Shown one piece after another: positions 42,017-61,344 of a stretch of DNA of 64,000 nucleotides (position 1 is the stretch's first letter; each line of letters begins with the position of its first letter). Both the position numbers and the translations under genes were made by a program. Below the pieces are notes generated by a model. That model saw only the letters and a list, made by a program, of their open reading frames with translations, was not told where the DNA came from and ran no database searches. The stretch lies in contig NZ_CP019980.1 in assembly GCF_002982115.1 (NCBI RefSeq), forward strand, positions 4,100,001-4,164,000. The letters run 5' to 3'. This stretch comes from Lysinibacillus sphaericus. Lineage in GTDB: Bacteria > Bacillota > Bacilli > Bacillales_A > Planococcaceae.

Positions 42017-42187
42017 ATTTATAGATAGGAAGGTAGATTAAAATTGTTTTTCTATATTTTTTTCAAAAAAGGATAGAGCTTTAACAGTGCTTCGTCAAAA
42101 AGGAAAACGCCAGAAACCTATGAAACAAGAGGATTTCAAACCTCCAAGAAGGTGAAATAAGCGATTTATTATTGAATAGAGGAATGA

Positions 42188-42228
42188 TAAAAAAACACTC
42201 TCGGCTCATCATGCAGCTGAAAGTGTTT
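42188..42228 (-). terminator. Terminator of the C45-like gene pair
   Basis: Minus-strand stem AAACACTTTCAGCT with a partly mismatched partner (AGCCGAGAGTGTTT), followed by seven T residues. It lies 15 bp beyond the restored end of the first C45-like gene, not the early stop, which supports the longer reading. Confidence 0.75.
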
Positions 42229-42242
42229 CTTTGGCCATATTA

Positions 42243-43349
42243 TTATTTGATTAGCTTCCAGAAGTTTGGTCCATAGTTTGAGTTCTCTATGAAAACTTCT
42301 AATTCATTAAAAGGCAAGGTTTCTCCTACTTTTAATTTATAGATTTTATTATTTATAGGGGAACCGAAAGAAATATCTAATTGTTTGTCGTTAAGATTAA
42401 ATAGAATTGAATGAACAGTTCAGAAATTTTCTTCGAAATTGTGCACTGTTACACCATTAGGGTATTCATTAAACATTAATTGTTGTAATTTATTCTTTGT
42501 AAAAAAATCATCACTCTCTAAGTTATTTTTCAAAAAATTATAACGTATTTCAGATTGTTCTAATTTTCTGTCTTCTAACTTCATTATTTTGGGCATTACA
42601 GCGTGATTAGTTGCAATCAAAAATCCTGATTTTTGATTGCCCCTTTCTACGAACTTTTCTCCATCATACGTTTCTACTAAAGCTACATTCCCTTTGGCAT
42701 CTGACAGTAGCAAATTCATATTTGTTCCAATAGGCATATTCTCTAAATAAGTAATTCCTTCCTCAACATCTTTACAATTTTCAAGTAAAGCTCTTACTAT
42801 TACCATAAACTGAAGTCCTTTTAGGATAGGCTTTTTCATTCCTGGATGTTTTCCAACTGGAATACCGCATGAGGCAAAAGCTACACAGAATCCCTCTTCA
42901 TTTAAGCCTTCACTTCGACCAAAGTACGAAACAGAGAATCCAGTATGACTATATTTCCCTTTTACCTTAGTTGTACAAAGTCTCATATCAGATATAGCTG
43001 GTGACAAATCGTAATTTCTAAGGACATAAGTTTTACCATCACTTGTTTTAGATGGTAAAACAGCGCCTAAACTACATCCTCCTGGTTGTAGTAAAGCTTC
43101 ATCAAAAAAGTTAAGACAACTAGGCTTTATATTTAATGAATCTGCAAATCCTTGAAGCTCTTCGTTTAAACCAGGAGCATAGTGATCAATTAGTTGTTTC
43201 GTATCCTTATATTTTGTTTCATCTATTAATTCAGATGATAAAATGACATTCATTGCATTAGGATTCTTTTTTATTTCCTCTCCTTGCAGTCTACCAATTT
43301 CATAACTGGTGCCTTTAAGATAAGAAATAGAAGCTTGAATTGAATTCAT
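42243..43349 (-). pseudogene. C45-family acyltransferase-like gene with an in-frame stop
   Basis: An N-terminal-nucleophile hydrolase of the peptidase C45 / acyl-CoA:6-aminopenicillanic acid acyltransferase family. The nucleophile Cys sits in GGCSLGAVLP, followed by LRNYDLSP. The frame runs from the ATG at 43349 (GGAGA upstream) to TGA at 42420-42422, and then continues in the same frame for 58 more codons (TVHSILFNLNDKQLDIS...) to TAA at 42243. The continuation reads like the normal C-terminus of the family. A single change, probably GGA to TGA, thus removes the last ~58 residues. It could be a nonsense mutation, a read error or read-through. Confidence 0.8.
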
Positions 43350-43387
43350 ATTTATCACTCTCCAATTCGAATTTTCAATTAATGTAT

Positions 43388-44232
43388 TTATTTTAAAACA
43401 GCATCTGTCAATCGTTTATCTGATTTATATTTTGCTTTGTTTGGTTGACCTTCGGCTCTAAGTATATCTAATGTATTTAAGTTTGCTACAACAGAAAAGA
43501 GCGTACCAAAATTATATTCTTTTAAATTTAAACAAACATGTCCCTTGGTTTCTGACATAATTGATCGTGCAGTGGAAAGATTCATTTTATTGACGTTTTC
43601 TTTAAGAAGTATATCTAATGTTTCAAAACGTTCTTTTGATTTGCTCCAATTCCAACTTTCAGATAGTGATGTACTTTCGTGGTGATTTGTACAATGAATA
43701 TAATTATTTGTAGGAAGGCGGACTTGATAGTCATTAGGGGTAACTTCAACAACAGCCATATTCCCTAATGAGGAACTGATGTAATTCCTACAAATAGACC
43801 ATGTTGATTTATACCATCAACTTTTCCAATAAAACAATCTGAATGACCTACATACTTATTTTTCCCTTCAAAACAAACAAGTGAGGACTCTGTAAAATTT
43901 TTTAGATTAAAGAGCATATCATAATTTCGACCAATAATAATTTCTCTCCCGTTAAAAGCTGAGAAAATACTACATTGACCGGCCAATTCAAATACCCCTA
44001 TACTTAAAAGAAAAGAACTTACTTCTTCATAAGAAGTATGACAGCCTTCTGCAAATCCTTTTATTTCTTTCACAACATTAGGATCAAATTCTATAAGAAT
44101 ATGTTTGCATGACTCTCCAAATTTTAATTTTTCTTCGGATACTTTCGGAAACCGAAATCCATTTTTATAAAGAATTTCTGCATAATGCTTTCCTGCCTCA
44201 TAAGCATCTCCCTTTAATCTCGGATGATACAT
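43388..44232 (-). pseudogene. Second C45-family acyltransferase-like gene with internal deletion
   Basis: The 5' part (44232-43765) starts MYHPRLKGDAYEAGKHYAE and has the nucleophile Cys in GQCSIFSAF and GRNYDM, ending abruptly at TSVPH plus TAG. The 3' part (to 43388) resumes in another frame with GNMAVVEVTPNDYQVRLP and runs to the normal end. Compared with the neighbouring paralogue about 55 codons are missing at the joint, and the frame is lost. First gene behind the MerR-type promoter at 44264-44294, with GGAGGG before the ATG. Confidence 0.8.
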
Positions 44233-44263
44233 TTAATTCCCTCCAATGTATTAGTATATAAAA

Positions 44264-44294
44264 AGAATAAACCCTCCAGTTGGTGGAGAGTTTA
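44264..44294 (-). promoter_or_regulatory. MerR/BmrR-type promoter of the C45-like genes
   Basis: TAAACT (44289-44294) and TATTCT (44264-44269) are 19 bp apart. Across the spacer lies CTCTCCACCAACTGGAGGGT, an inverted repeat like those bound by BmrR-type activators. It lies between the MerR gene and the C45-like pair. Confidence 0.75.
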
Positions 44295-44325: not shown

Positions 44326-45171
44326 TTATTTCTTAATTACTGGTATACAAATTTTGGTAACAAACTCTGATGGATGTCTGTTTAAATCTGGTTTTATATC
44401 TCTACTATTAAAATTGACAGGTACAAGACCTTCTTCATAAATTTCTATCTCTTTCGCTATCTGAGTTAGATTTTGTTCGAAGATCCAACTATTCAATTTT
44501 TTATAGCCTTTATCCAACTCCGAATAGGGGCCTTTAACAGTAATACATGCGTATATCCCGCTGGATAAAGTCCTAAAGCCCGCTATTTTGTTCATATGTT
44601 CTACTGGAAGAAGCAGCTCTATATCAGCCTCTTTTTGACTAAATTCTCTTTCATGAAAGATAGCCATTAATTTCCCTGTAATCACGAGATTAAAAGCGTA
44701 AACTCGATTAAATAAATTTTTAACCAACTCATCAATAAATTGGACCTTTATCTTCTCACGTATCGTGTACACTAGGGTCTCCTCTCGGTTTTCAATAAAG
44801 CAATCGGATAAAAAAGGCCCTGGGATTATAGAAATTTCTTTCTCTATTTGCATGTTTAATCGTTTCAATTCTTCTATTTGTTCGGAGATTTGTTCTTTTT
44901 TTTCCTCAAGTTCATCAATCTTATATGCTAATATACTTTTTAGTTGTACTTGTTCTGTGCTGTTAATAAATTCCTTGACTGTAGATAAAGAAAATTGACA
45001 ACTCTTTAGAAGCATAATTTTTTTCATGATTTGAATTTTGTCATAGTCATAATACCGATAGTTTGTTACAGGATCTATGTAAGAAGGTTTTAGTAATCCA
45101 ATGTCACTATAATAACGTATTGTTTTAACTGGAATATCACATATTTTTGAAAATTCACCTATAGAATACAC
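44326..45171 (-). CDS. MerR-family regulator with GyrI-like effector domain
   Basis: A 281-residue activator of the BmrR/BltR type. It has an N-terminal MerR helix-turn-helix (MYSIGEFSKICDIPVKTIRYYSDIGLLKP), a long coiled coil (about 75-110) and a C-terminal GyrI-like domain that usually binds hydrophobic or drug-like molecules. GTG start with AAAGGGAG six bases upstream. Directly upstream of, and in line with, the C45-like genes, whose promoter has the matching 19-bp spacer. It appears intact although both targets are damaged. Confidence 0.88.
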   Translation of the reverse strand: MYSIGEFSKICDIPVKTIRYYSDIGLLKPSYIDPVTNYRYYDYDKIQIMKKIMLLKSCQFSLSTVKEFINSTEQVQLKSILAYKIDELEEKKEQISEQIEELKRLNMQIEKEISIIPGPFLSDCFIENREETLVYTIREKIKVQFIDELVKNLFNRVYAFNLVITGKLMAIFHEREFSQKEADIELLLPVEHMNKIAGFRTLSSGIYACITVKGPYSELDKGYKKLNSWIFEQNLTQIAKEIEIYEEGLVPVNFNSRDIKPDLNRHPSEFVTKICIPVIKK

Positions 45172-45252
45172 TGCATTCTCCCTTTACAATTAAAAAATTT
45201 TTATTTTAAATCACTAAATATTTAGTTTGTGATAAATCGAAGTCTTCGTCAG

Positions 45253-45302: not shown

Positions 45303-45765
45303 TTACACCTTTAACTTCATCTTGCTACTATCATTACCGCATGCATCGGGATGAAACTTCTTGAATACCATGCGATAAATCCATGAAGAATCTTCTTTTC
45401 ATCATTGTTGTATTTCCTGTTTAAAGTAATTTGGTAATTACTATCATCATTTTTAAAATGTTCTTCGAAATGGCTCCAACTTATCATTGTTAGCTACGTC
45501 TTGTATATTCTTCACTAGCCTTTTTAGTGGCAATAACTTTCTTTATGTTTAAGTACTCCTCATTGCGTAGCGTACCAAATACATCGAAATTCGACTGTAA
45601 GTACAGCTCTCATATCGTTTTTCAAACTCATTAACATTTCTATGAGTAATTTGAATAGCCATGTGTTCTTAGTGTACCTTGTGTTCTTCTGTTTGTTCAT
45701 ATTCTGCCCTGATTACCTCCTCAATGGGATTTAATTTGTCGGAAATCACAGCATGTTATGATACA
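45303..45765 (-). pseudogene. Degenerate J-domain-like phage/plasmid gene
   Basis: No single frame is open, but joining three frames gives a coherent protein: SDKLNPIEEVIRAEYEQTEE, stop, MAIQITHRNVNEFEKRYES, shift, ELYLQSNFDVFGTLRNEEYL, stop, NDEKKILHGFIAWYS, shift, KKFHPDACGNDSSKMKLK. The end carries the HPD tripeptide and surrounding residues of J-domain co-chaperones. At least two frameshifts and two stops are present, so the gene is dead. I cannot name the full-length parent. Confidence 0.6.
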
Positions 45766-46249
45766 TGTATTCCATTAACAACTCCAGATGTAGCATTTTG
45801 CCTGCTTCCTACTCCTGTATTAAAATTAAGAAACGACCACAACAATAGTTGAAGCCGCTCTCTGTTTTTGCTATAGTCAATTTGCGTTATTTTCACTAGT
45901 CACTGTTCCAGCAGTGGCTTTTTTTATTGTGTGAGAGTGTCACTTACAAGACACATTGAATAGCTCGTTTGAAACACATTCAAGCGTGTTAACAGTTTCC
46001 TACATTGTAGCATATAGTGTATAAAAGCCCATATCAATCAAACATATGGTACATTTCTGTTCTCAATAACATGCACCGATTAGGCTTAGGTTGAAATGTA
46101 ATTAATTACCTGTTTAAGGGAACTGATGAAGAAAAATAGCAGTACAGAAAAAGCATCTACCTAATAGAAAGAATAAGCGACAACACCTCTGCTATAAATA
46201 GGATTAAAAGCGCCTTAAATTACGGGAACGCTCTTTTCCTATTTAGGTA
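45766..46249. other. Non-coding remnant DNA with one plus-strand terminator
   Basis: No credible frame on either strand. A plus-strand hairpin AGTCACTG/CAGTGGCT with seven T residues (45898-45926) looks like the terminator of a lost plus-strand gene. The rest is AT-rich and unremarkable. Confidence 0.5.
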
Positions 46250-46819
46250 CTACATTATAGACTCTCCCTCTTTCCGCTTTTTACTCTCACGTTTTAACGT
46301 ACTCATAGAAATGCCTGTAAACTCGGCAACTTGTTTAAATGAGTGGTCATCCAGCATTTGCATTGCATGGTCTAACTGTTTCTTAGTGTATTTATTTGGT
46401 CTTCCTTCTCGAAACCCCTCTTGTTGCTTGGCAATTACCTTCCCTTCCTGTGTACGTTCAATAATTAGATTACGTTCCATTTCAGCCACAGCAAGTAGTG
46501 TCTGTAAAAAGAAACAACCCATCGTCGTATTTTCAAGTAAACCCACATTCAACACATGAACCTTCACACCTTTTTCAAACAGTCCCTCGATGATTTCAAT
46601 ACCTTCTTTAGTGTTACGAGCTAATCTGTCTAATTTGGTTACAACAAGCTTATCTCCTTCTTCTAATTTAGATAGCAACTCATTTAATTGCGGTCGGTCT
46701 GTTTTTGTTCCAGTGAACTTCTCTTTGTAAATAACCGTTGCCCCTTCACTTTCCAATGATTGAAGCTGAACCTCTAATTCCTGTGATACAGTTGATACCC
46801 TCGCATAGCCATAAATCAT
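46250..46819 (-). CDS. Serine recombinase (resolvase/invertase family)
   Basis: A 189-residue small serine recombinase. It has the catalytic Ser in [14 protein letters not shown], the [13 protein letters not shown] region, [11 protein letters not shown] and a C-terminal helix-turn-helix ([20 protein letters not shown]) for site binding. All of the catalytic Arg-containing segments look intact, so it may be active. It is likely of plasmid or transposon origin, given the dead mobile DNA around it. A nested palindrome that could be its target lies just upstream (46866-46911). Confidence 0.92.
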
Positions 46820-46865
46820 AGAAAAACTCCCTCATTTCTACACCACACTTATGAACCTAAGTTGC

Positions 46866-46911
46866 GACACCATTTTATACCTTGATATTACTGTATCAAC
46901 ATAACGGTGTC
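46866..46911. promoter_or_regulatory. Nested palindrome upstream of the recombinase (possible res/operator site)
   Basis: GACACC and TTGATA are mirrored by TATCAA and GGTGTC around a six-base centre (46888-46893). It begins 47 bp before the recombinase start, the usual place of a recombination and autoregulation site for this enzyme class. Confidence 0.5.
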
Positions 46912-47173
46912 AATACTATTAAGTTTAGATACCATATAAATAAAAAATATCCCTTATGAACTGTTGTGGGATTTTTTAAAATAGATACAGCAAACTAGAG
47001 GTTTGATTTTTATCATCTTCTTTAGATTAAATATTGCCTAACACAGCTATATTCACTTAATAGAGGTTGCCGGAGAACCAATTGTTAAACAATCCCCTTG
47101 GCTATATAACGTTCATTCATCAGATATTATTTCCATATGATTCTAAGTAGATTCAAATTCTCAGAAACTCACG

Positions 47174-47221
47174 AATAAAAAACAATAGACAAAGTCGATT
47201 GTTTTTCGACTTTGTCTATTG
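47174..47221 (-). terminator. Terminator of the small secreted protein gene
   Basis: Sixteen-bp stem (CAATAGACAAAGTCGA and complement) followed by six T residues on the minus strand. The 250 bp between this and the recombinase's upstream palindrome hold nothing I can identify. Confidence 0.88.
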
Positions 47222-47254
47222 TCTGAAACTACGGATGAATACCATCCATAGTTT

Positions 47255-47611
47255 TTAATTGCATATGTTATACTTACACTCAGTCACAGTTCCACCATAT
47301 TCGTATAGTCCCCCGCTTTGTCCTAGATAACTAAGAACACCTCTATACATTTTACTGTTATAAAAAGTTGTTCTGACAATAGGATTACCTTGATATGTAT
47401 CATATCTCAATTCTACATACATTGAATGAAGACCATCTAATGCATAGGTATCTACTAACTGATTAGTAATTACAGTAAATTTTTCCGTATCGATAGAATT
47501 TAAATCAACTTCATCATTATTATTTAATTCTTGGGCTGAGGTAATAAGAGAACTTGATAAAAATACCGACAGAACTAGTAAAAAACCGGTTATTAATCTA
47601 GAAAATTTCAT
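47255..47611 (-). CDS. Small secreted protein, hypothetical
   Basis: A 118-residue protein starting MKFSRLITGFLLVLS with a clear signal peptide (cleavage likely after TSA, near 27). The mature part is polar, with two late cysteines (in TECKYNIC) that could pair outside the cell. GGAGG lies about 11 bases before the chosen ATG; an upstream frame extends further but has no better start. No family recognised. It is flanked by mobile DNA but has a well-formed terminator and an intact frame. Confidence 0.6.
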   Translation of the reverse strand: MKFSRLITGFLLVLSVFLSSSLITSAQELNNNDEVDLNSIDTEKFTVITNQLVDTYALDGLHSMYVELRYDTYQGNPIVRTTFYNSKMYRGVLSYLGQSGGLYEYGGTVTECKYNICN

Positions 47612-47885
47612 AATAGTTAAATCCTCCATTCGTTTGAATAATTTAACAATAATACATTTCACCACGGAAGTCAAATGGATATTAATTAAGACATATCCTT
47701 CTGCTGCCATTCATAATGCTTTCTTTTTTCATAATGTTTCACTGACGTCGCATAAATTTTGATTGTATTTTCTGTTTTCATCTTCTTCCGTTTTTGAAGA
47801 AAATGAAAGACACTTAATATAGAAATAGTAAACATTCATTTTTTTACTATAACCTTTGACTGGGGCAACTGCCAGTTCAAATTCC

Positions 47886-49008
47886 TTATGGTACTGTATT
47901 TCCTTCGATTTTCCGAAGCCAAATACGTGCTGGTTTCCATAGTACTGCTTTTAAGTACCTACTAATTTGTAAGTACGTCAGTGAACTGTTTGTGCGAATC
48001 TGTGCTAGCACGTTTAAGCAGTAAACAATCATGGCAATGTACACCTGATTATGCACAGCTTGCTCGCTTTGCCCGTAAATCTTTTTAATGTTCAGATGCT
48101 GTTTCATCCACTAAAAAAACAGTTCGATTGCCCAGCGTGACTTATACAGTTCAGCGACTTCATCTGCATTTAAATCAAAACGATTCGTAATCAGACGTAG
48201 CTCTTTACCATTTGGATCCAATACTTCGATACGGCGAAATACATTCTCAGCACGATTTTGCTTGTTGCCAATCAGAATCAATTCATCCGATAACACCGAT
48301 GACTGTTCAGGTACTTCAAATGATTCAACCACACGCGTTACGGCATTTTTCCGTAAGCGTGAGACAAAGAAAAATCCGTCATCTGTCATGCGGTCAAAAC
48401 GCTCATAATCTAAGTATCCTCGGTCAAACACGTACATGCACTCCCTGTCATCCACGAGAATTTCAAGCTGACCACGATCATGTTCTTTCGCATCTCATCA
48501 CCGCTTTATCAGGGTACGAACAACCTTTTTCTAGGTAAACAAGGCGCAAATGTAACTTCACACCTGATTTTGTTTTACGGAATTCAGCCCATCTATGATT
48601 GTTTAAGTTCAATGGCAGTGTGCTGGAATCAATGATTTTCAGTGGTGTTGTGGTTTTTCGGCGCTGCTCAAAATGCATTTTCTCATGAATTTGCCCGACT
48701 AAGTCTAGAAAAATTCGTTGGAAAAACTCAGTCGGGACTTGGTTTAATCGCCGACCTAACTGCGAAAAGCTGATGGATTTTAAATATGTTTCTTTTTGTA
48801 AGTCGTCTGATAACAGCGTGTCACTCAGGGCACGTAGACTTTCGGTTTCATTTAGCTGCGCAAACAGTAATAACCTCAAGAATGAAGCGATGTGAAGCTT
48901 CTTTGTATAGTAATTTAATTGATGAATTTCGACTAATTTCTCTATTTGTGTAGAAGAAATAGGTGAGAACCATTGTTCAAATGATGTTTTTCGTGTAAAC
49001 TTATCCAT
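47886..49008 (-). pseudogene. IS4-family transposase, disrupted
   Basis: Three adjoining fragments make one IS4-type transposase. The start is MDKFTRKTSFEQWFSPIS (ATG at 49006-49008, AAGGAC upstream). The DDE residues appear in IIDSSTLPLNL, VFDRGYLDYERFD and YKSRWAIELFF, the last being the YREK motif. A frameshift near 48485 (consistent with loss of two bases: total 1,123 nt against 1,125 expected) and a TAG at 48111-48113 inside the YREK motif inactivate it. I could not find convincing terminal inverted repeats. Confidence 0.9.
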
Positions 49009-49444
49009 GCTTATGTCCTTTATTTTGGATTTGGATGGTTTACTATCACCCAACCATTATAAAGGCTTTTTTTACGCATGGATAACATTACGGAAAATTC
49101 AGTTTTTTAAAATACATTAAATTATTTTAATGCGACGCTAGTGACGTTAAATAAATTAAATAAAACTCTATTTAATTAAATTAATAAACTGATGTTGACT
49201 ATAATTTTCTTAAATTTTATTGTCTTCAATCGTTGCATTATCAACTTTTTACACTTTATTCCATAATTTGAATCACTTGCTACTACTGACTTTGTTTCAT
49301 CCTGCATTCTACATAACATAATACATATTCTGTTAAGGTCATAAAACCCCTATAAAGTTATATGCATCAAGGGTTTCCATTACTTCCCTAAGATTAACTT
49401 TACATGTCCGAAATATGTTAAGTTCAAGGATAAAGTTTAACTTA
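49009..49444. other. AT-rich gap between IS4 remnant and phage fragments
   Basis: About 430 bp with no coding frame, hairpin or repeat I can support. A sequence CTGAATTTTCCG (minus strand, about 49091-49102) might be an end of the IS4 element, but its partner was not found. Confidence 0.3.
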
Positions 49445-49668
49445 CTATTTTAATTTTAGTATAGCCTCATCCAATTTTGATACAGCTTCATCATATCGTT
49501 TTTGCTTCTCCTGAATATCGTCAATAACTAATTTTAAATTTGTATCTGCGAAAACTGTAATTTCTCTATTATGCTTATGTTGTCAATCATTCATACTCGT
49601 AATAATTCGTAGTGCTAACTGTTTTTCTAAACTTAAATCTCCAGCTAGATATTATTCTCCATATTCAT
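49445..49668 (-). pseudogene. Fragment of a small phage gene
   Basis: Starting at an ATG that overlaps the stop of the preceding replication fragment (ATGA), a joined reading gives MNMENNI, shift, LAGDLSLEKQLALRIITSMND, stop, QHKHNREITVFADTNLK and on to a lysine-rich end. One frameshift and one internal TGA disrupt it. The protein family is not known to me; the overlap with the upstream gene indicates an old phage operon. Confidence 0.5.
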
Positions 49669-50053
49669 GGGTCTCTAAACTTATTTAGATTAAACAATGT
49701 ATTTGGTTGCAAGTATTTATTCATTTTTAGATCATGTATCCATTGTTTTACTTTATTATCTATCACTCTCTTAAAATCTTTGATTATGTACCCTTCTGTT
49801 ATGCGTTCATTAATTAATCGTTTCGTAGTTGCAGTTGTTGCCTTAAAATTTTTTGATGCTTTATGATTTAGATACTCGATAATTTCCTGTACCGTGTCGA
49901 TGAACTCTTTATTTTTTTTCGTATTAGTAATATGTTTATTTAGTATTTGGTTATTATCAGAGTATTTAGTAGTTTGCTGCTTTGTACATCTTCATTCTCT
50001 ACATGTTCATAACCGCCAAGTAGAGAATTTTCTTGAGGTACTTCGTGTACAAT
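49665..50053 (-). pseudogene. Phage replication protein remnant (conserved phage C-terminal domain)
   Basis: The last about 100 codons read VQEIIEYLNHKASKNFKA, TTKRLINERITEGY, IIKDFKRVIDNKVKQW and MNKYLQPNTLFN. These match the C-terminal domain found in replisome-organiser/DnaD-like proteins of Gram-positive phages. Upstream (EVPQENSLLGGYEHVENEDVQS) the frame is shifted by one base and the N-terminal DNA-binding part is missing. Confidence 0.75.
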
Positions 50054-50064
50054 AGTTTCCCATC

Positions 50065-50625
50065 CCACAATTCGTTGCCCTTGCCTTACTGGCATTGGGG
50101 CTTCAATGGCGAAATATCGACTTTGCCAATCAAACGATTACCATTGAGAGAACCAGAGGGAATAACGGTGTAGGATCCATTAAAACCAAAAATAGTGAGC
50201 GTACTATAAAAGTAGATGATGTGGTGTTACAAAACCTTCAAAGCTATCGAACAGCTGTTAAAGCGTTGCTATTTTCACATGGTCGTAAGCTGCATAGCGA
50301 TATAGCAAAAGATGATTCATTTATTTTTCTATCACCTCACACTGCAGAGCCTTTTGTTTCCACAGGGTTAAATGCAATATTTAATCGCTTTGTAGAAGCG
50401 GCTGGACTACCAGCAACAACGATACATGGTTTAAGGCACACACATGCCACCATACTTATGAATAACAGTATTCCTGTCAAGGCGATTGCCGAACGATTAG
50501 GAAATACTCCAGAGATGATCCACACCGTTTATGGTCACGTTCTCCAAGAGATGGAGGCACAAACAGTATCCGTATTTAGTGAAAGTTTAAAGGCGATTGG
50601 GGCTAAAAGTGGGGCTAGCTCATAG
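50065..50625 (+). pseudogene. Truncated phage integrase (tyrosine recombinase), C-terminal part
   Basis: About 176 residues of the catalytic domain: LGLQWRNIDFANQTITI, the HGLRHTHA box with the His and Arg, and VYGHVLQEM with the nucleophile Tyr. The SAM-like and core N-terminal parts are absent. The first catalytic Arg, normally in a TGMRRGE-type segment just before GLQW, is deleted (the text runs LALLALGLQW). The usual LGH is LGN. It cannot be a working integrase by itself. It abuts the phage replication remnant at about 50.06 kb, so the junction is a deletion point. Confidence 0.88.
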
Positions 50626-50672: not shown

Positions 50673-51545
50673 TTATTTTACCCAGCCTAAAATCATTTCT
50701 CTTAATAATTTACTTGCTGTATTGGCTGTCATTTCTGATGTGTCATAGATTGGTGCTACTTCAACTAAATCAAAGCCTACTACATTGACGCCACTTGCAG
50801 CAATTGCATGAATAGAAGCTAATAATTCTTTCGACGTAATGCCTCCACAATCTACAGTACCAGTACCAGGTGCATGTGCTGGATCTAGTACATCGATATC
50901 AATTGTTACGTAGACATTGCGGCCTGCTAATGTTGGTAACACTTCTTTTAACGGCTCTAGTACTTCAAATTTTGAAATATGCATACCGTTTTCTTTCGCC
51001 CATTCAAATTCTTCCTTCATACCTGAACGAATGCCAAATGAATAGACATTTTTAGGCCCAATATGCTCGGCAATTTTACGAATCGGTGTTGAATGGGAAA
51101 GTGGCTCCCCTTCATATTCCACACGTAAATCTGTATGTGCATCGAAATGAATAATGGCTAAGTCATCGTACTTTGCAGCAACTGCCTTCATTACAGGCCA
51201 AGACACTAAATGCTCGCCGCCCATGCCGACAGGAATTTTACCATCTTCTAATAATTTCACAATGAATTTCTCAATTTCATCTAAAGAACGTTGAGCATTG
51301 CCGAATGGTAATGGAATATCCCCTGCATCAAAATACTTTACCTCTTCTAATTCGCGATCTAAATATGGGCTATACTCTTCTAGGCCAATCGACACTTCAC
51401 GAATACGTTGTGGACCAAAACGTGACCCTGGACGGTAACTTACTGTCCAGTCCATCGGCATGCCATAAATAACTGCCTGTGCATCCTCATATGTAGGATG
51501 ACTTTTTATAAAAACATTTCCTGAATAAGCTTCATCAAATCTCAT
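50673..51545 (-). CDS. speB: Agmatinase
   Basis: Hydrolyses agmatine to putrescine and urea in polyamine synthesis. The 290 residues equal the B. subtilis length, and all manganese-binding motifs of the ureohydrolase family are present: GMGGEHLVS, FDAHTDLR and DIDVLDPAHAPGTGT. In B. subtilis speE (spermidine synthase) lies between pbpG and speB; here it is absent and a 310-bp divergent gap takes its place. That gap shows no other gene. Confidence 0.96.
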   Translation of the reverse strand: MRFDEAYSGNVFIKSHPTYEDAQAVIYGMPMDWTVSYRPGSRFGPQRIREVSIGLEEYSPYLDRELEEVKYFDAGDIPLPFGNAQRSLDEIEKFIVKLLEDGKIPVGMGGEHLVSWPVMKAVAAKYDDLAIIHFDAHTDLRVEYEGEPLSHSTPIRKIAEHIGPKNVYSFGIRSGMKEEFEWAKENGMHISKFEVLEPLKEVLPTLAGRNVYVTIDIDVLDPAHAPGTGTVDCGGITSKELLASIHAIAASGVNVVGFDLVEVAPIYDTSEMTANTASKLLREMILGWVK

Positions 51546-55902: not shown

Positions 55903-58900
55903 TTATTTCATTTCTGCCTTACGACGACGTAAGAAGAACAATGCGCCTAAAACAAGCGCTACACCCGTTAGAGTAAGAGCTGTTTGATTGGCTCCATCTG
56001 TTTGAGGCAACTTACCTTGTGCCTGTAATTGCGTTTCTAAACGTTTTGCATCTGCTTTGATTTTATCTACATCAAGTGATTTTGCAATTTCTTCCTGCTC
56101 TTCTTTTGATAATTGGTTATAGTTATCAATGAAATCTTTATACGCATCTAGCGTATCTTTATTTGCAGTAGAAGTATTAATTGACGGCAAGTTTTTCCCT
56201 TGATCAATAACATCTTGTACAGTTGGTTTAGACGTATCTGTTTTTCCAGGAGCCGTTGGATCTTTTGAATCTGTTGAAGGATTCCCTGGATTACTTGGCT
56301 CTTCTGTATTTGTTGATGGATTTTCAGGATTCACCGGTTGTTCTGGATCTGGTGTTGGCTTGTTCGGATCCACCGGTTTACCTGGTTCTGGTGTTGGCTT
56401 GTTTGGATCCACCGGTTTACCTGGTTCTGGTGTTGGCTTGTTTGGATCCACTGGTTTACCTGGATCTGGTGTTGGCTTGTTCGGATCCACCGGTTTACCT
56501 GGTTCTGGTGTTGGCTTGTTTGGATCCACTGGTTTACCTGGTTCTGGTGGTGTTGAACCACCGCCACCGCCTCCACCGTTATCACCTGGTAATGACGGTT
56601 TTACAAGTGCCGAACATGTATCTTTTACAACGAAAGAGCCAATTAAACGACTTCCTTCATATACATTGTACGTTCCTTGTTGAATTGCTTTATCTGGTAA
56701 AACAATAGTTCCAGCAACAGACGTTGTTAGCTTGTCGTTACCATTCGCATCTTTAATTGTATTTCCTTTCACATCTTTCACAGTGACTATCGCATTTGCA
56801 AGAGGTGTACCAAATGCAGTTTGTACAGTCAATGTAAACGAAGGACATGTAGGTGCTGCTACAATTTCCGCATGACAATTAACGGAATATTGAACTGTAA
56901 TTTGACCAATAAATAGGTCACCTTGATACACGCTATAGTCCCCTGAAGGAATATCTTGAGATGGCATCGTCACTTGACCTAGTGCGTCTGTTGTTTTGTT
57001 TGAAGCAATTGTTGCGCCGTTTTTATCTTTAATCATAATGTTACTTACATTCGGGCGAACATTACCGTTTTCATCTTTCACCGTTAATGTAAAGATTGGA
57101 CAAGACGGTGCTGGTTGCACTGTTGCTGCACAGTCAACATTCGATTGGAAGCTACCATTTTCTTTGCCATTGACTTCAACTTTATAAATACCTGGTTGCA
57201 GATTTGTTAATTCCAGCACACCATTCGTTGTTGTTTTTGTCGCAACAATTTTATCATCTGCATCTTTCACTGTTACAGAAGTACCGTCCGCAACTAAGTT
57301 GCCATCAACATCCTTAACAGTTAGTTTAAACGTTTCACATTTTGGTGCTTGTGTAATCGCAGTTTCACAATTCCCTTTGTATGAGATATCAACTGTACTT
57401 AAAAATTGATTGCCCTCATATAAATAGTATTCTCCTGCTTTAACACCATTTACATCTTGAATTGACGGCACTGTAAACTTACCGTCTTTATCAGTTGTTA
57501 CAGTTACAATTTCGCTACCCGTTGAATCTTTCAACGTGACAGTTACTCCTGCACGAGGTACATCAACTCCAGCTTTTTTCTCATTTAATGTAATTGTAAA
57601 TGCTGGACAAGCTGGTATTGGTGCAATTTCATCTTTACAGCCATCTGTATATTTCACAGTTACATTTCCAATTTTTGTATCATTCGCATCATAAACATCG
57701 TATTGTCCTGCTAATACAGTGTTCGGCACTTTTACAACACCATTAGTAGTTGCACCCGTGTATTTCACTGTACCGTTTGCATCTTTCAATGTTACATTTT
57801 GGTCTGCTATTGCAGAACCATCTAGATCTTTAATTGTTAATTCAAATTCTTTACACGCATTTGCTGGTGGCGCAATATCTTCAACGTTAACAATTGTATA
57901 AGGTTTCTTTGTAACCTCGAAGTTGTTGCTATCATTAAACCTTACTTCAACTGTTGAAACTGCTTTATAGCCTGCAGGTGTTGTTTCTTCTAGTTTATAA
58001 ATACCGTAGCGTAAATTTTCGAATGAAAGTTCACCATCAACTGTCGACCCTTCTGCTAAGACAATGGATTTGTCACGGTTATATAACTTGAATTCTACGC
58101 CATCAAGTGTTTTTGTTGCACCTGTATTCGGATTTACACCTTGTTTCTTAATTTTAAACGTTCCCTTTTTAGCTGAAGCGTTTGTATCAGATGTACTGTA
58201 CTTAAATAACTTGTTATCTCCACCTGTAGCGGATGTACCTGCGGAAGTAGCACCTGCATAGTTAATGGATGCATTATTCGATACATTTTCACCCGCGTTC
58301 GGGTCACCCATAAAGTACGTTTTGTATTTAATAATATAGCCCTTACCATCGACATTTCCTAAATCTAATGTAAAGGTACCATCTGGCTGTACTTGAATAT
58401 CGCTAGGACTAATCGCAGTTGCTGTACCAACGTTTTGTGATTTTCCTGTGGCATTTAACTTAATTTCTTGCTTTGTAAATGTGTTAGTTAATAGCTTTTG
58501 GTTAGCTGAAGGCGTATCCGTTAACGTAATATTACCTAGCTTTGAGTTGGATTCGTTAATCGTGACTGTCCATTCAATCGTATCTGATGTTGGTTGAGGA
58601 CTAGCTGTCTTAGTAATTAACTTGTTCGCTTTATCTGTAATCGTTGCGATTGCATCATACGAATATTTACCATTATCTGGAGTATCTAAAACGGCACTAT
58701 TCGTATATTTTCGAGCATCCGTACTTCCATTTCCATAAACATCATCTGAATCTTTTGATTTGTACTCTATTAGGTACGCTTCATTATTTTCTCCAGCCGT
58801 TAACCCTGTAAATGTAAGTTCATAACTTGTCACATTGCCTTGGGCATCTTGTGTAACAGATTTCACATCCCATTTAGTAGGATCTAATGGCGCATCTTTT

Positions 58901-61344
58901 GTTCCTCTTTCATCATTCACACCTAATTTTAAAAGATTTACAGTAATAGCATCTTTTAAACTTTGACCATCTGGAACAATAATATGGTGTCCTGTACCTA
59001 ATGTATCTATTAGTTTTGCACCTTCGATGTTTTGCTTATTAATGTTAATACCAATTTTCCAAGAAAATTCTTGTTTACTATTATCGACAATTGCATTGTC
59101 TTTATAACCATTTTTACCTGTAGGCGATGTTGCGGATGGTTTATAGCTAGCATTTTTTTGTGCTTTATTATTTGTACTTGTTTGACCATCCCACGTAGCA
59201 TCTGCTACATTGTCATAGCTTTGTGCCACGCCACCGTTTGATTCAATATCAAACTTTGTTTTGTATTCAATTGTTACAGTTCCTGAAGGGATCGATGAGA
59301 ATGTCATTGTAAATGCTTCGTCTCCGATTTCTCCTCCATTATTAATTGTTGGTGCACTACTATTTGTAACATGGAATACTTTACTCGAACCATCCCACGA
59401 TGTTAACTTATGCTTTAACGTTTTACCGCTCGCGTTTTTCGTTGAAATAGTATCTGCAATGACAAAGTTTGTTAATGGTTTTTCAGCATTAATTGTTAGT
59501 TTCCAAGTAATTGTTTTATTGACATAGTCAATTGCGAAACGCTCTTTACTAAAGATATTTGATTCAATATTTACAGTTGCTGATTTTGAACTATCATCAT
59601 CTAAACGCTTTACAGTATTTGTGATACTCCCTGCATTTGCATCTGTGACAAATTCTTGATCAAACTCTGTATTATACTTAATCAAATAAGCTGCACGCGG
59701 ATTAGCAGCAACATCTTTAGAAAAATCAATAGTAAATCCTTGCGCAGTATCATCACTTAATGCATAATCTGTATCTTTCGTTAACAGTGTTTCTGACGCT
59801 GCTGTTTGACCATCATCATTTAACGTTACACGATACACTTGGAAATTAGCATCATATTGTATATTGTGCTTTGCCCCATTATTGTTTGCTGGAATGGTAT
59901 CAGTTAATGATTGGGAAGATTTTTTGCTAAGATCTTCTCCTAACCAGTTATACTTAATCTCCCAAGATGCTTCGTATTTATTATTCGATTTAATAGTTTT
60001 TAGTAAAGCTGGGCCATACGGGATATTTACTTGTCCTGGACTTGTCTTAGTAACGCCGTTATTTGTGAATTCTGCTGTGTTCTTATACGTCATATTGGAG
60101 CTTGTTGGATCTGCTGTAACTTTCGTTTTATACGTTAGTTTGTAGGCAAAACCTCCCGCATCCAAATTGACAGGGAATGCTGTTGAACCAATGTCATAAC
60201 TTACTGGCGCTCCTGGATTACTTTTGTTAATACCATTTAAGCCGATTGGATATTTCTCAACTACTAAACTACCTGCTATAAATGCATGATTTGCATCTGG
60301 CGTATCGTCTACTGTAGCACCTGAAACAATTGGTTTACCTTCTGTGTTGACCCAGACTGTCCAATCAATTTCAGCGCCATCCGCTTCACGTGTAATTGTA
60401 CCGGAAGATTTAGTGATCGGCTCACCACTACCAGTAGGCTGAAATATGAACGGTAACGTAATATCTGCTTTGCCTAACACAGGCATTACTAATTCTTGAT
60501 CAAGTTTAGACTCGTCTTGGAAATTACCAAACTTGGCCATAAAATCAAATTCAATCTCTCCATCAACACCGTCTTCGATGTCACTCTCTAATGTTACGAG
60601 TATTTTACCAGCAGAATAGCTATACGAATATGTAGCGTATTCCGTAGTTTTCGAACCTGAAAACGAGTTACCTACTTGCTCAATCATATATTGTGGTAAA
60701 TCAAACGTAAATGTAGAACCTACACCATAGCCCTGCGTAGGCTTCACATCAAATACATAGTTTAAATAAACTGTGTCACCTTTTTTTGGTGCAGCGTCGG
60801 CTGGAATTTGTGATGAGTTCTCGATTACCTCGCCTGTTGGACCAGTTAGTCGAATACCTGCAGATACAGCACTTACATCACCTTGCATATCACCAGCAGT
60901 TAACGCTAATGGTGCTATGTTCATAGGTGCTATTTCCGGTGTCGTTGCGTCAGTCGCCTCTTCACTTGGCTTTGCTTCACCTTCAGCTCCGTCAACTTTG
61001 TCAGATTCATCCGGTGGTGTCACGGTTGAATTATCCGTGCCCCCCGTATTAGCATCTGTCCCATCAACTTCCCCTGTATCACCAGGTGTTGGCACTGTTG
61101 CATCCGGATTACCTGTGTCACCAGGTGTCGGTACTGTTGCATCTGGATTGCCTGCGTCACCAGGTGTCGGCACTGTTGCATCTAGATTGCCTGTGTCCGG
61201 CGAATTAGACGTAGTTTCACCATTTCCAGCTTCAACTGCTGGAGGTACAGAAGAACCTGTATCTTCTGCAAATACGGAAATCGGTGACAGTACCGTTTGG
61301 AACACTAGCAACAATGTAATGATTGCTAAATTTAATTTTTTCAT
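55903..61344 (-). CDS. Large cell-wall-anchored adhesin with collagen-adhesin-like and SpaA-type domains
   Basis: An 1,813-residue surface protein. In order: signal peptide (cleavage after VFA, about 26); a Thr/Pro/Asp-rich region with three 13-residue repeats (ATVPTPGD...); and a collagen-adhesin-type head (from about 150, with many isopeptide-prone beta domains such as KSATVNIES and ANSRS-like units repeated several times). Next is a SpaA/CnaB-type domain (about 1080-1160, KIKKQGVNPNTGATKTLDG, YKLEETTPAGY). Then come five to six CarboxypepD-reg-like repeats that each end in a Cys (for example PACPAFTITL, PKCETFKLTV). A Pro-rich wall spacer follows with five to six 13-residue repeats, and the end is LPQTDG, hydrophobic helix and RRRK tail. 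The anchor motif is LPQTD rather than LPXTG. RBS GGGAGAG. Confidence 0.9.
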   Translation of the reverse strand: MKKLNLAIITLLLVFQTVLSPISVFAEDTGSSVPPAVEAGNGETTSNSPDTGNLDATVPTPGDAGNPDATVPTPGDTGNPDATVPTPGDTGEVDGTDANTGGTDNSTVTPPDESDKVDGAEGEAKPSEEATDATTPEIAPMNIAPLALTAGDMQGDVSAVSAGIRLTGPTGEVIENSSQIPADAAPKKGDTVYLNYVFDVKPTQGYGVGSTFTFDLPQYMIEQVGNSFSGSKTTEYATYSYSYSAGKILVTLESDIEDGVDGEIEFDFMAKFGNFQDESKLDQELVMPVLGKADITLPFIFQPTGSGEPITKSSGTITREADGAEIDWTVWVNTEGKPIVSGATVDDTPDANHAFIAGSLVVEKYPIGLNGINKSNPGAPVSYDIGSTAFPVNLDAGGFAYKLTYKTKVTADPTSSNMTYKNTAEFTNNGVTKTSPGQVNIPYGPALLKTIKSNNKYEASWEIKYNWLGEDLSKKSSQSLTDTIPANNNGAKHNIQYDANFQVYRVTLNDDGQTAASETLLTKDTDYALSDDTAQGFTIDFSKDVAANPRAAYLIKYNTEFDQEFVTDANAGSITNTVKRLDDDSSKSATVNIESNIFSKERFAIDYVNKTITWKLTINAEKPLTNFVIADTISTKNASGKTLKHKLTSWDGSSKVFHVTNSSAPTINNGGEIGDEAFTMTFSSIPSGTVTIEYKTKFDIESNGGVAQSYDNVADATWDGQTSTNNKAQKNASYKPSATSPTGKNGYKDNAIVDNSKQEFSWKIGININKQNIEGAKLIDTLGTGHHIIVPDGQSLKDAITVNLLKLGVNDERGTKDAPLDPTKWDVKSVTQDAQGNVTSYELTFTGLTAGENNEAYLIEYKSKDSDDVYGNGSTDARKYTNSAVLDTPDNGKYSYDAIATITDKANKLITKTASPQPTSDTIEWTVTINESNSKLGNITLTDTPSANQKLLTNTFTKQEIKLNATGKSQNVGTATAISPSDIQVQPDGTFTLDLGNVDGKGYIIKYKTYFMGDPNAGENVSNNASINYAGATSAGTSATGGDNKLFKYSTSDTNASAKKGTFKIKKQGVNPNTGATKTLDGVEFKLYNRDKSIVLAEGSTVDGELSFENLRYGIYKLEETTPAGYKAVSTVEVRFNDSNNFEVTKKPYTIVNVEDIAPPANACKEFELTIKDLDGSAIADQNVTLKDANGTVKYTGATTNGVVKVPNTVLAGQYDVYDANDTKIGNVTVKYTDGCKDEIAPIPACPAFTITLNEKKAGVDVPRAGVTVTLKDSTGSEIVTVTTDKDGKFTVPSIQDVNGVKAGEYYLYEGNQFLSTVDISYKGNCETAITQAPKCETFKLTVKDVDGNLVADGTSVTVKDADDKIVATKTTTNGVLELTNLQPGIYKVEVNGKENGSFQSNVDCAATVQPAPSCPIFTLTVKDENGNVRPNVSNIMIKDKNGATIASNKTTDALGQVTMPSQDIPSGDYSVYQGDLFIGQITVQYSVNCHAEIVAAPTCPSFTLTVQTAFGTPLANAIVTVKDVKGNTIKDANGNDKLTTSVAGTIVLPDKAIQQGTYNVYEGSRLIGSFVVKDTCSALVKPSLPGDNGGGGGGGSTPPEPGKPVDPNKPTPEPGKPVDPNKPTPDPGKPVDPNKPTPEPGKPVDPNKPTPEPGKPVDPNKPTPDPEQPVNPENPSTNTEEPSNPGNPSTDSKDPTAPGKTDTSKPTVQDVIDQGKNLPSINTSTANKDTLDAYKDFIDNYNQLSKEEQEEIAKSLDVDKIKADAKRLETQLQAQGKLPQTDGANQTALTLTGVALVLGALFFLRRRKAEMK
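56335..56550. repeat. 39-bp tandem repeats coding the wall-spanning proline region
   Basis: Five nearly identical 39-bp units and one diverged unit, encoding 13-residue repeats of the type PEPGKPVDPNKPT. Unit-to-unit changes are mostly Glu/Asp swaps and synonymous. Such arrays readily change copy number. Confidence 0.93.
61075..61200. repeat. 39-bp tandem repeats near the adhesin N-terminus
   Basis: Three 39-bp units encoding ATVPTPGD[A/T]GNPD-type 13-residue repeats just after the signal peptide region of the surface protein. Confidence 0.85.

Follow-up and report, generated by a model that had tools for sequence, protein, structure and literature searches.

A 64-kb stretch of the Lysinibacillus sphaericus genome (contig NZ_CP019980.1, positions 4,100,001 to 4,164,000, referred to here as the window; the 4.68-Mb chromosome is assembled as a single contig) carries on its minus strand what appears to be a decayed inducible "sense-and-cut" operon. 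In this reading, to which a probability of about 0.58 is given, the GyrI domain of a regulator would bind a compound and a C45-family enzyme would cleave an amide in that compound or in a close relative of it. The minus-strand order is regulator, promoter, two acyltransferase/hydrolase genes (C45a and C45b), a severed C45b tail and a terminator. The first-pass annotation, made from the letters of the window, had described a MerR/GyrI sensor, a 19-bp-spacer promoter and two tandem C45 genes as a single inducible-looking unit; profile matches and promoter anatomy agree with this description and support the unit. By C45b protein, two named relatives come closest, both at 97% identity: Lysinibacillus mangiferihumi and a metagenome-assembled genome of an uncultured 'Bacillus'. 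This would place the host in the L. sphaericus group.

The regulator gene (44329–45171, minus strand) is undamaged, starts with GTG and encodes 281 amino acids. A Pfam scan gives matches to MerR_1 (7.1e-15) and GyrI-like (7.4e-8). A MerR helix-turn-helix with a GyrI-like C-terminal domain is found in the window regulator and in all five orthologues scanned, and the fold agrees, with the orientation of the domains in the structure model unsure (predicted template modelling score, pTM, 0.46). Glu246 of the regulator aligns with Glu253 of BmrR, a candidate sign of activation by drug-like ligands. The promoter (44264–44294, minus strand) shows the hexamers TAAACT and TATTCT separated by a 19-bp spacer that holds a dyad. 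Target promoters of MerR-GyrI activators, according to the excerpted text of PMC8113463, have just such a dyad between hexamers and a spacer of 19–20 bp.

Seventeen loci that are MerR-type or related were found by protein alone (L005–L020 and L034), and the 31-bp operator/promoter element of the window is also present at 15 of them, the two without it being L020 and L034. The operator alignment has 35 rows, including both L015 and L075 from one genome; 19 rows (L058 onward) were found via the operator itself and provide no independent test, while the 17 protein-found loci are independent. In a sample of 261 genomes of the family the operator is present in 18 genomes at 21 sites, and in a sample of 398 genomes of the class, which overlaps the first, it is present in five, two of them already known; reversed-pattern controls gave 0 in both. 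The window's own site, 20 other family sites and three new class sites make up 24, and at all 24 a C45 gene or remnant lies downstream. A MerR gene lies upstream at 21 of the 24, damaged in two cases. The target of BmrR is an efflux pump; the operators here, all 24 preceding a C45 gene or remnant, do not show an efflux pump as target. A scan of the window's own genome for the operator, allowing up to 3 mismatches, showed no second site.

The association of the enzyme with GyrI-domain regulators extends well beyond the MerR type. A search by C45b alone in genomes of named species gave 31 loci, and at 28 of these a GyrI-domain regulator is found within 3 kb, 14 MerR-type and 14 AraC-type; the GyrI profiles used for this count, and for the control and class counts below, were built from the units themselves and may favour them, but the Pfam scans are free of this. 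The 14 MerR-type loci have a full-length MerR-GyrI gene upstream, its GyrI domain detected by Pfam in 5 of 5 scanned and by the home-made profile in 14 of 14. The other 14 loci, mostly Clostridia but also Paenibacillus turicensis and the spirochaete Breznakiella, have a same-strand gene of AraC type no farther than 3 kb from the enzyme, and within 200 bp of it in 10 of them. By Pfam, all 14 of these regulators carry a GyrI-like/Cass2 domain. Further genomes of the class sample also have AraC-GyrI regulators beside C45b relatives. Thus the linkage, the absence of which in other genomes had been named as a ground for dropping the idea, recurs, and is wider than the earlier MerR-only view.

When 47 C45 proteins are placed in a tree, regulator type requires a total of 8 changes against a mean of 21.6 after shuffling, with none of 200 shuffles as low; AraC and MerR each require 4, and several long branches make details of the tree unsure. 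The simplest reading of this tree is that GyrI sensors have been coupled to C45 enzymes more than once. A chance neighbourhood is rejected on the strength of the operator scans with their zero reversed controls, the rarity of GyrI genes (seven in the window genome, so that any one gene has a chance of about 1% of lying within 4 kb of one), and control loci with other PF03417 genes, of which only 1 in 22 is within 4 kb of a GyrI gene. That one, L134, lies within the C45b clade. Of 26 places that do not belong to the units, 22 serve as controls, and four short fragments (G049:C53, G039:C109 and two in G039:C78) are omitted. One record among the loci, L013, is named Roseburia sp., and its C45b shares 95% identity with the Siminovitchia thermophila protein; it is perhaps a mislabelled or contaminated assembly.

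Both enzymes match the C45_proenzyme profile NF040521, C45b (42420–43358, minus strand, 312 codons) at 4.2e-61 and the broken C45a (43388–44232, minus strand, pieces 44232–43768 and 43759–43391) at 1.7e-24 and 3.8e-12. With a profile cut-off of 85 bits, C45b scores 207 and the C45a pieces 86.8 and 46.2, which places the genes in the family. C45b also matches the AAT profile (3.1e-31). Cys95 of C45b, the candidate nucleophile, is invariant in 29 of 29 aligned proteins, and in the structure comparison it stands first among the aligned residues, paired with residue 1 of penicillin V acylase. For intact C45b of L. mangiferihumi (L006), the structure model has a mean predicted local distance difference test score of 88.6 and a pTM of 0.91. 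The likeness to beta-lactam acylases is at the fold level, and the acyl-homoserine lactone (AHL) acylases PvdQ and MacQ are a distant fold match; in these structure searches the absence of a family from the match lists was not counted as evidence.

C45a and C45b had been called twin genes. The name does not hold, as the two are 25–27% identical, lie far apart in the tree, and each occur alone under the operator elsewhere; the identity and the tree also rule out a recent tandem duplication. A third C45-family gene of another subfamily is present at G000:C1:2976976-2977578 (L001, L133), with an undamaged open reading frame, no GyrI neighbour, and relatives in other Lysinibacillus. PADLOC gives no match for intact C45a and C45b and merely a helix-turn-helix match (mad1) for the regulator, and anti-phage defence was rejected as a function. 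No plasmid relatives of the unit are found at the megablast level.

The proposed sequence of events begins with the binding of a small, probably amphipathic or cationic molecule by the GyrI domain. The ligand-bound regulator would remodel the 19-bp-spacer promoter, and RNA polymerase would transcribe the downstream C45 gene or genes. The C45 precursor would cleave itself so that a Cys (residue 95 of C45b) becomes its N-terminal residue. The mature enzyme would then act at an amide bond, by hydrolysis or by transfer of the acyl group, in the inducer or in a chemically close compound. The outcome would be detoxification or use of that compound. Beta-lactams, AHLs and acylated peptides, which the first-pass annotation had put forward, are speculative candidate substrates.

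The enzymes have been broken or lost many times. Among 36 distinct units, 12 have an undamaged C45a, 10 have a damaged copy or a remnant of it (L010 retains such a remnant) and 14 have none. C45b is undamaged in 23, damaged in 6, of unclear start in 1 and absent in 6; the regulator is undamaged in 29, damaged in 3 and absent in 4. Five loci (L059, L062, L063, L072 and L075, from the genomes of L006, L007, L016, L018 and L015, respectively) were left out as duplicates, and sequencing errors may account for part of the breaks seen in draft genomes. Because the close regulators L016, L060 and L067 head different sets of undamaged enzymes, the loss is recurrent and recent, which would suit a trait useful just where a particular compound is present. 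An obligate C45a/C45b complex is unlikely, since either enzyme occurs without the other: 5 of the 36 units have undamaged C45a without C45b, and 14 have C45b with no trace of C45a, among which C45b is damaged in L034 and of unclear start in L068. Two loci show further rearrangement. In Oceanobacillus sojae (L034, 7395–8495) the DNA-binding part of the regulator runs into the middle of C45b, an apparent deletion across the promoter. In Ureibacillus xyleni (L015/L075) open reading frames that appear by eye to be transposase-like, and which we take to resemble IS66, stand in place of the regulator 5′ of C45b, with the operator and an undamaged C45b kept.

Several points weigh against the sense-and-cut reading. 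The frequent enzyme damage suggests a function that many strains can do without. Three of the 31 loci found by C45b have no GyrI gene; L015 and L020 are without a regulator and L034 retains its first 137 residues alone. The fairly close C45b relatives L135 (41%) and L160 (48%) have no GyrI gene within 4 kb, and L018, the sole row of the regulator alignment from the b-only clade, has no Glu at position 246. In the class sample an enzyme-alignment match at 1e-60 is found in 17 of 398 genomes, and just 10 of these (G000, G055, G408, G590, G271, G331, G329, G363, G393 and G567) have a GyrI regulator beside the enzyme. In G390 the operator is present but no regulator, and six genomes (G273, G263, G398, G322, G529 and G608) have the enzyme with neither, the contig in G322 stopping 0.3 kb past the enzyme gene. 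With 10 of the 17 having the regulator and six neither regulator nor operator, the link is strong near the window clade but not universal.

The six genomes with the enzyme alone favour an alternative that is unlikely but still a serious one, namely that the C45 enzymes act in general catabolism, as amidases or acylases in the use of peptides or fatty amides, and that the GyrI domain senses an unrelated stress signal, the ligand differing from the substrate. It also agrees with the diverse ligands that GyrI domains accept in the excerpted text of PMC8113463, and with C45 genes of other subfamilies that have no GyrI neighbour in related genomes. However, one sensor fold is linked to several distinct C45 branches, through either MerR or AraC DNA-binding parts, and the lack of a second operator in the window genome also speaks against a general role. 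It is quite unlikely that the enzymes serve a signal instead of detoxification, acylating or deacylating a signal or peptide product in quorum quenching or biosynthesis. The same Ntn (N-terminal nucleophile) hydrolase fold is found in AHL acylases, but these are structurally much more distant from the window enzyme than is isopenicillin N acyltransferase, and outside close relatives the open reading frame lists show by eye no recurrent neighbour besides the regulator.

Within the sense-and-cut reading, the window copy is most likely dead in both enzymes, with a regulator that controls nothing useful. Compared with the undamaged genes of L005 and L071, C45a has lost its frame and 139 bp, or about 46 codons. 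Thus the loss of frame described by the first-pass annotation stands, whereas its figure of about 55 codons does not. The deletion maps to an imperfect direct repeat of 11 bp, whose copies lie 139 bp apart in L005, where the gene is intact, and a second gap of 19 bp is found at the C45a 3′ end or in the spacer. C45b is interrupted by an in-frame TGA (42420–42422) followed by a 58-codon sense tail (42246–42419, minus strand). Homologues that end naturally at this point would have told against an interruption, but 30 of 31 relatives have a sense codon at the TGA place and a tail of about 58 amino acids or more; in the 31st, L020, the frame is broken and the match ends before the TGA place, so it is not comparable. 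The residue at the TGA place is invariant in 29 aligned proteins. The severed part holds the last four strands of the fold (313–321, 326–331, 340–343 and 352–357 in the intact L006 model), and therefore the truncated C45b very probably does not fold. Closely 3′ of the tail, as had been noticed, is an intrinsic terminator (42175–42240, minus strand), a hairpin with a U-run at −20.4 kcal/mol (z −4.0; none of 200 shuffles equals it).

The damage looks young, as had been supposed, because the corresponding locus next to bioW in L005 and L071 retains undamaged copies of both enzymes. The translated tail matches those of L005 and L006 at 100% identity, and C45b differs from that of L005 by 13 silent and 10 amino-acid changing differences, stop included; both would fit a C45b that still works, by read-through of the TGA or with the TGA as a sequencing error. 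This is very unlikely, as the genome is assembled as a single contig, a deletion has broken the upstream enzyme gene of this operon, and C45b is damaged in 5 other units too. Window-specific differences are more numerous in C45b (about 19 of 1113) than in the regulator (6 of 846) or C45a (5 of 838), perhaps through an imported allele or relaxed selection.

It is barely credible that the conserved dyad of the promoter is the regulator gene's own terminator and no operator: a simple terminator scan does list it, but its sequence is conserved and not the pairing alone, in the genome samples scanned no copy stands apart from a C45 gene, and in 8 of the 35 rows (one clade, perhaps one event) both hexamers and the 19-bp spacing are kept where a stem pair is broken at position 23 and the T-run is absent.

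Upstream of the regulator, the leader (45190–45240, minus strand) carries a palindrome, ACTAAATATTTAGT, which was considered as an operator for the regulator itself. The palindrome is altered in L005 and L071 and does not appear in L006 or in the rest of the upstream regions compared; since it is unconserved in relatives, the leader is probably no operator. A small open reading frame 5′ of the regulator (45317–45487) is 80–82% alike in L005 and L071 and is perhaps a gene remnant. Some 4.8 kb (45750–50546) is present in the window but missing from L005, L006 and L071 between an agmatinase-like gene (50673–51545) and the unit. It contains a resolvase by Pfam (46250–46819) and, by eye, transposase pieces (48111–49053) and an integrase-like piece (50095–50625). 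Farther away, 55903–61344 encodes a repetitive surface-type protein of 1813 amino acids that ends in what we take to be an LPXTG-like sorting signal.

Among the matches listed from the open-licence literature, C45 enzymes are nowhere linked with MerR or GyrI regulators, and no substrate is given for any bacterial member of this C45 clade. Matches for "C45 family peptidase" concern, in their excerpted text, azaserine biosynthesis and the origin of a kanamycin gene. Inducible GyrI-sensor units are known and C45 enzymes are known; the coupling of both appears new, and is likely new in print. A tentative proposal, to which we would not quite give even odds, is that GyrI-sensor/C45 pairs make up a so far undescribed class of inducible units that modify small molecules, scattered across Bacilli, Clostridia and at least one spirochaete, the sensor being repeatedly coupled through MerR or AraC parts to distantly related Ntn amide-cleaving enzymes. 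On this proposal, the ligand of the sensor would predict the enzyme substrate. The drug-sensor turns the substrate question into a reporter screen, where an inducer of the promoter is the first candidate substrate. The unit hints at an uncharacterised bacterial route for sensing and chemically modifying small molecules.

Among known enzymes, the isopenicillin N acyltransferase of Penicillium (2X1C) also belongs to C45 and is 16% identical to the window enzyme. The window enzyme differs in being bacterial and under a drug-sensor-type regulator, and no penicillin pathway genes were noticed adjacent to it. MacQ and PvdQ share with it the Ntn-hydrolase fold and its predicted amide cleavage. The regulator resembles BmrR and EcmrR in domain order, in fold, in a 19-bp-spacer promoter with a dyad, and in Glu246 opposite BmrR Glu253; it differs in that the regulated gene is a C45 enzyme rather than an efflux pump. 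STM3175/YgiV and CtaZ are GyrI-domain binders of albicidin and closthioamide, respectively, and STM3175 protects by trapping albicidin, according to the excerpted text of PMC10414762; the window unit adds an enzyme gene. If inducer and substrate coincide, the pair would be the enzymatic counterpart of BmrR-controlled efflux and of GyrI drug trapping.
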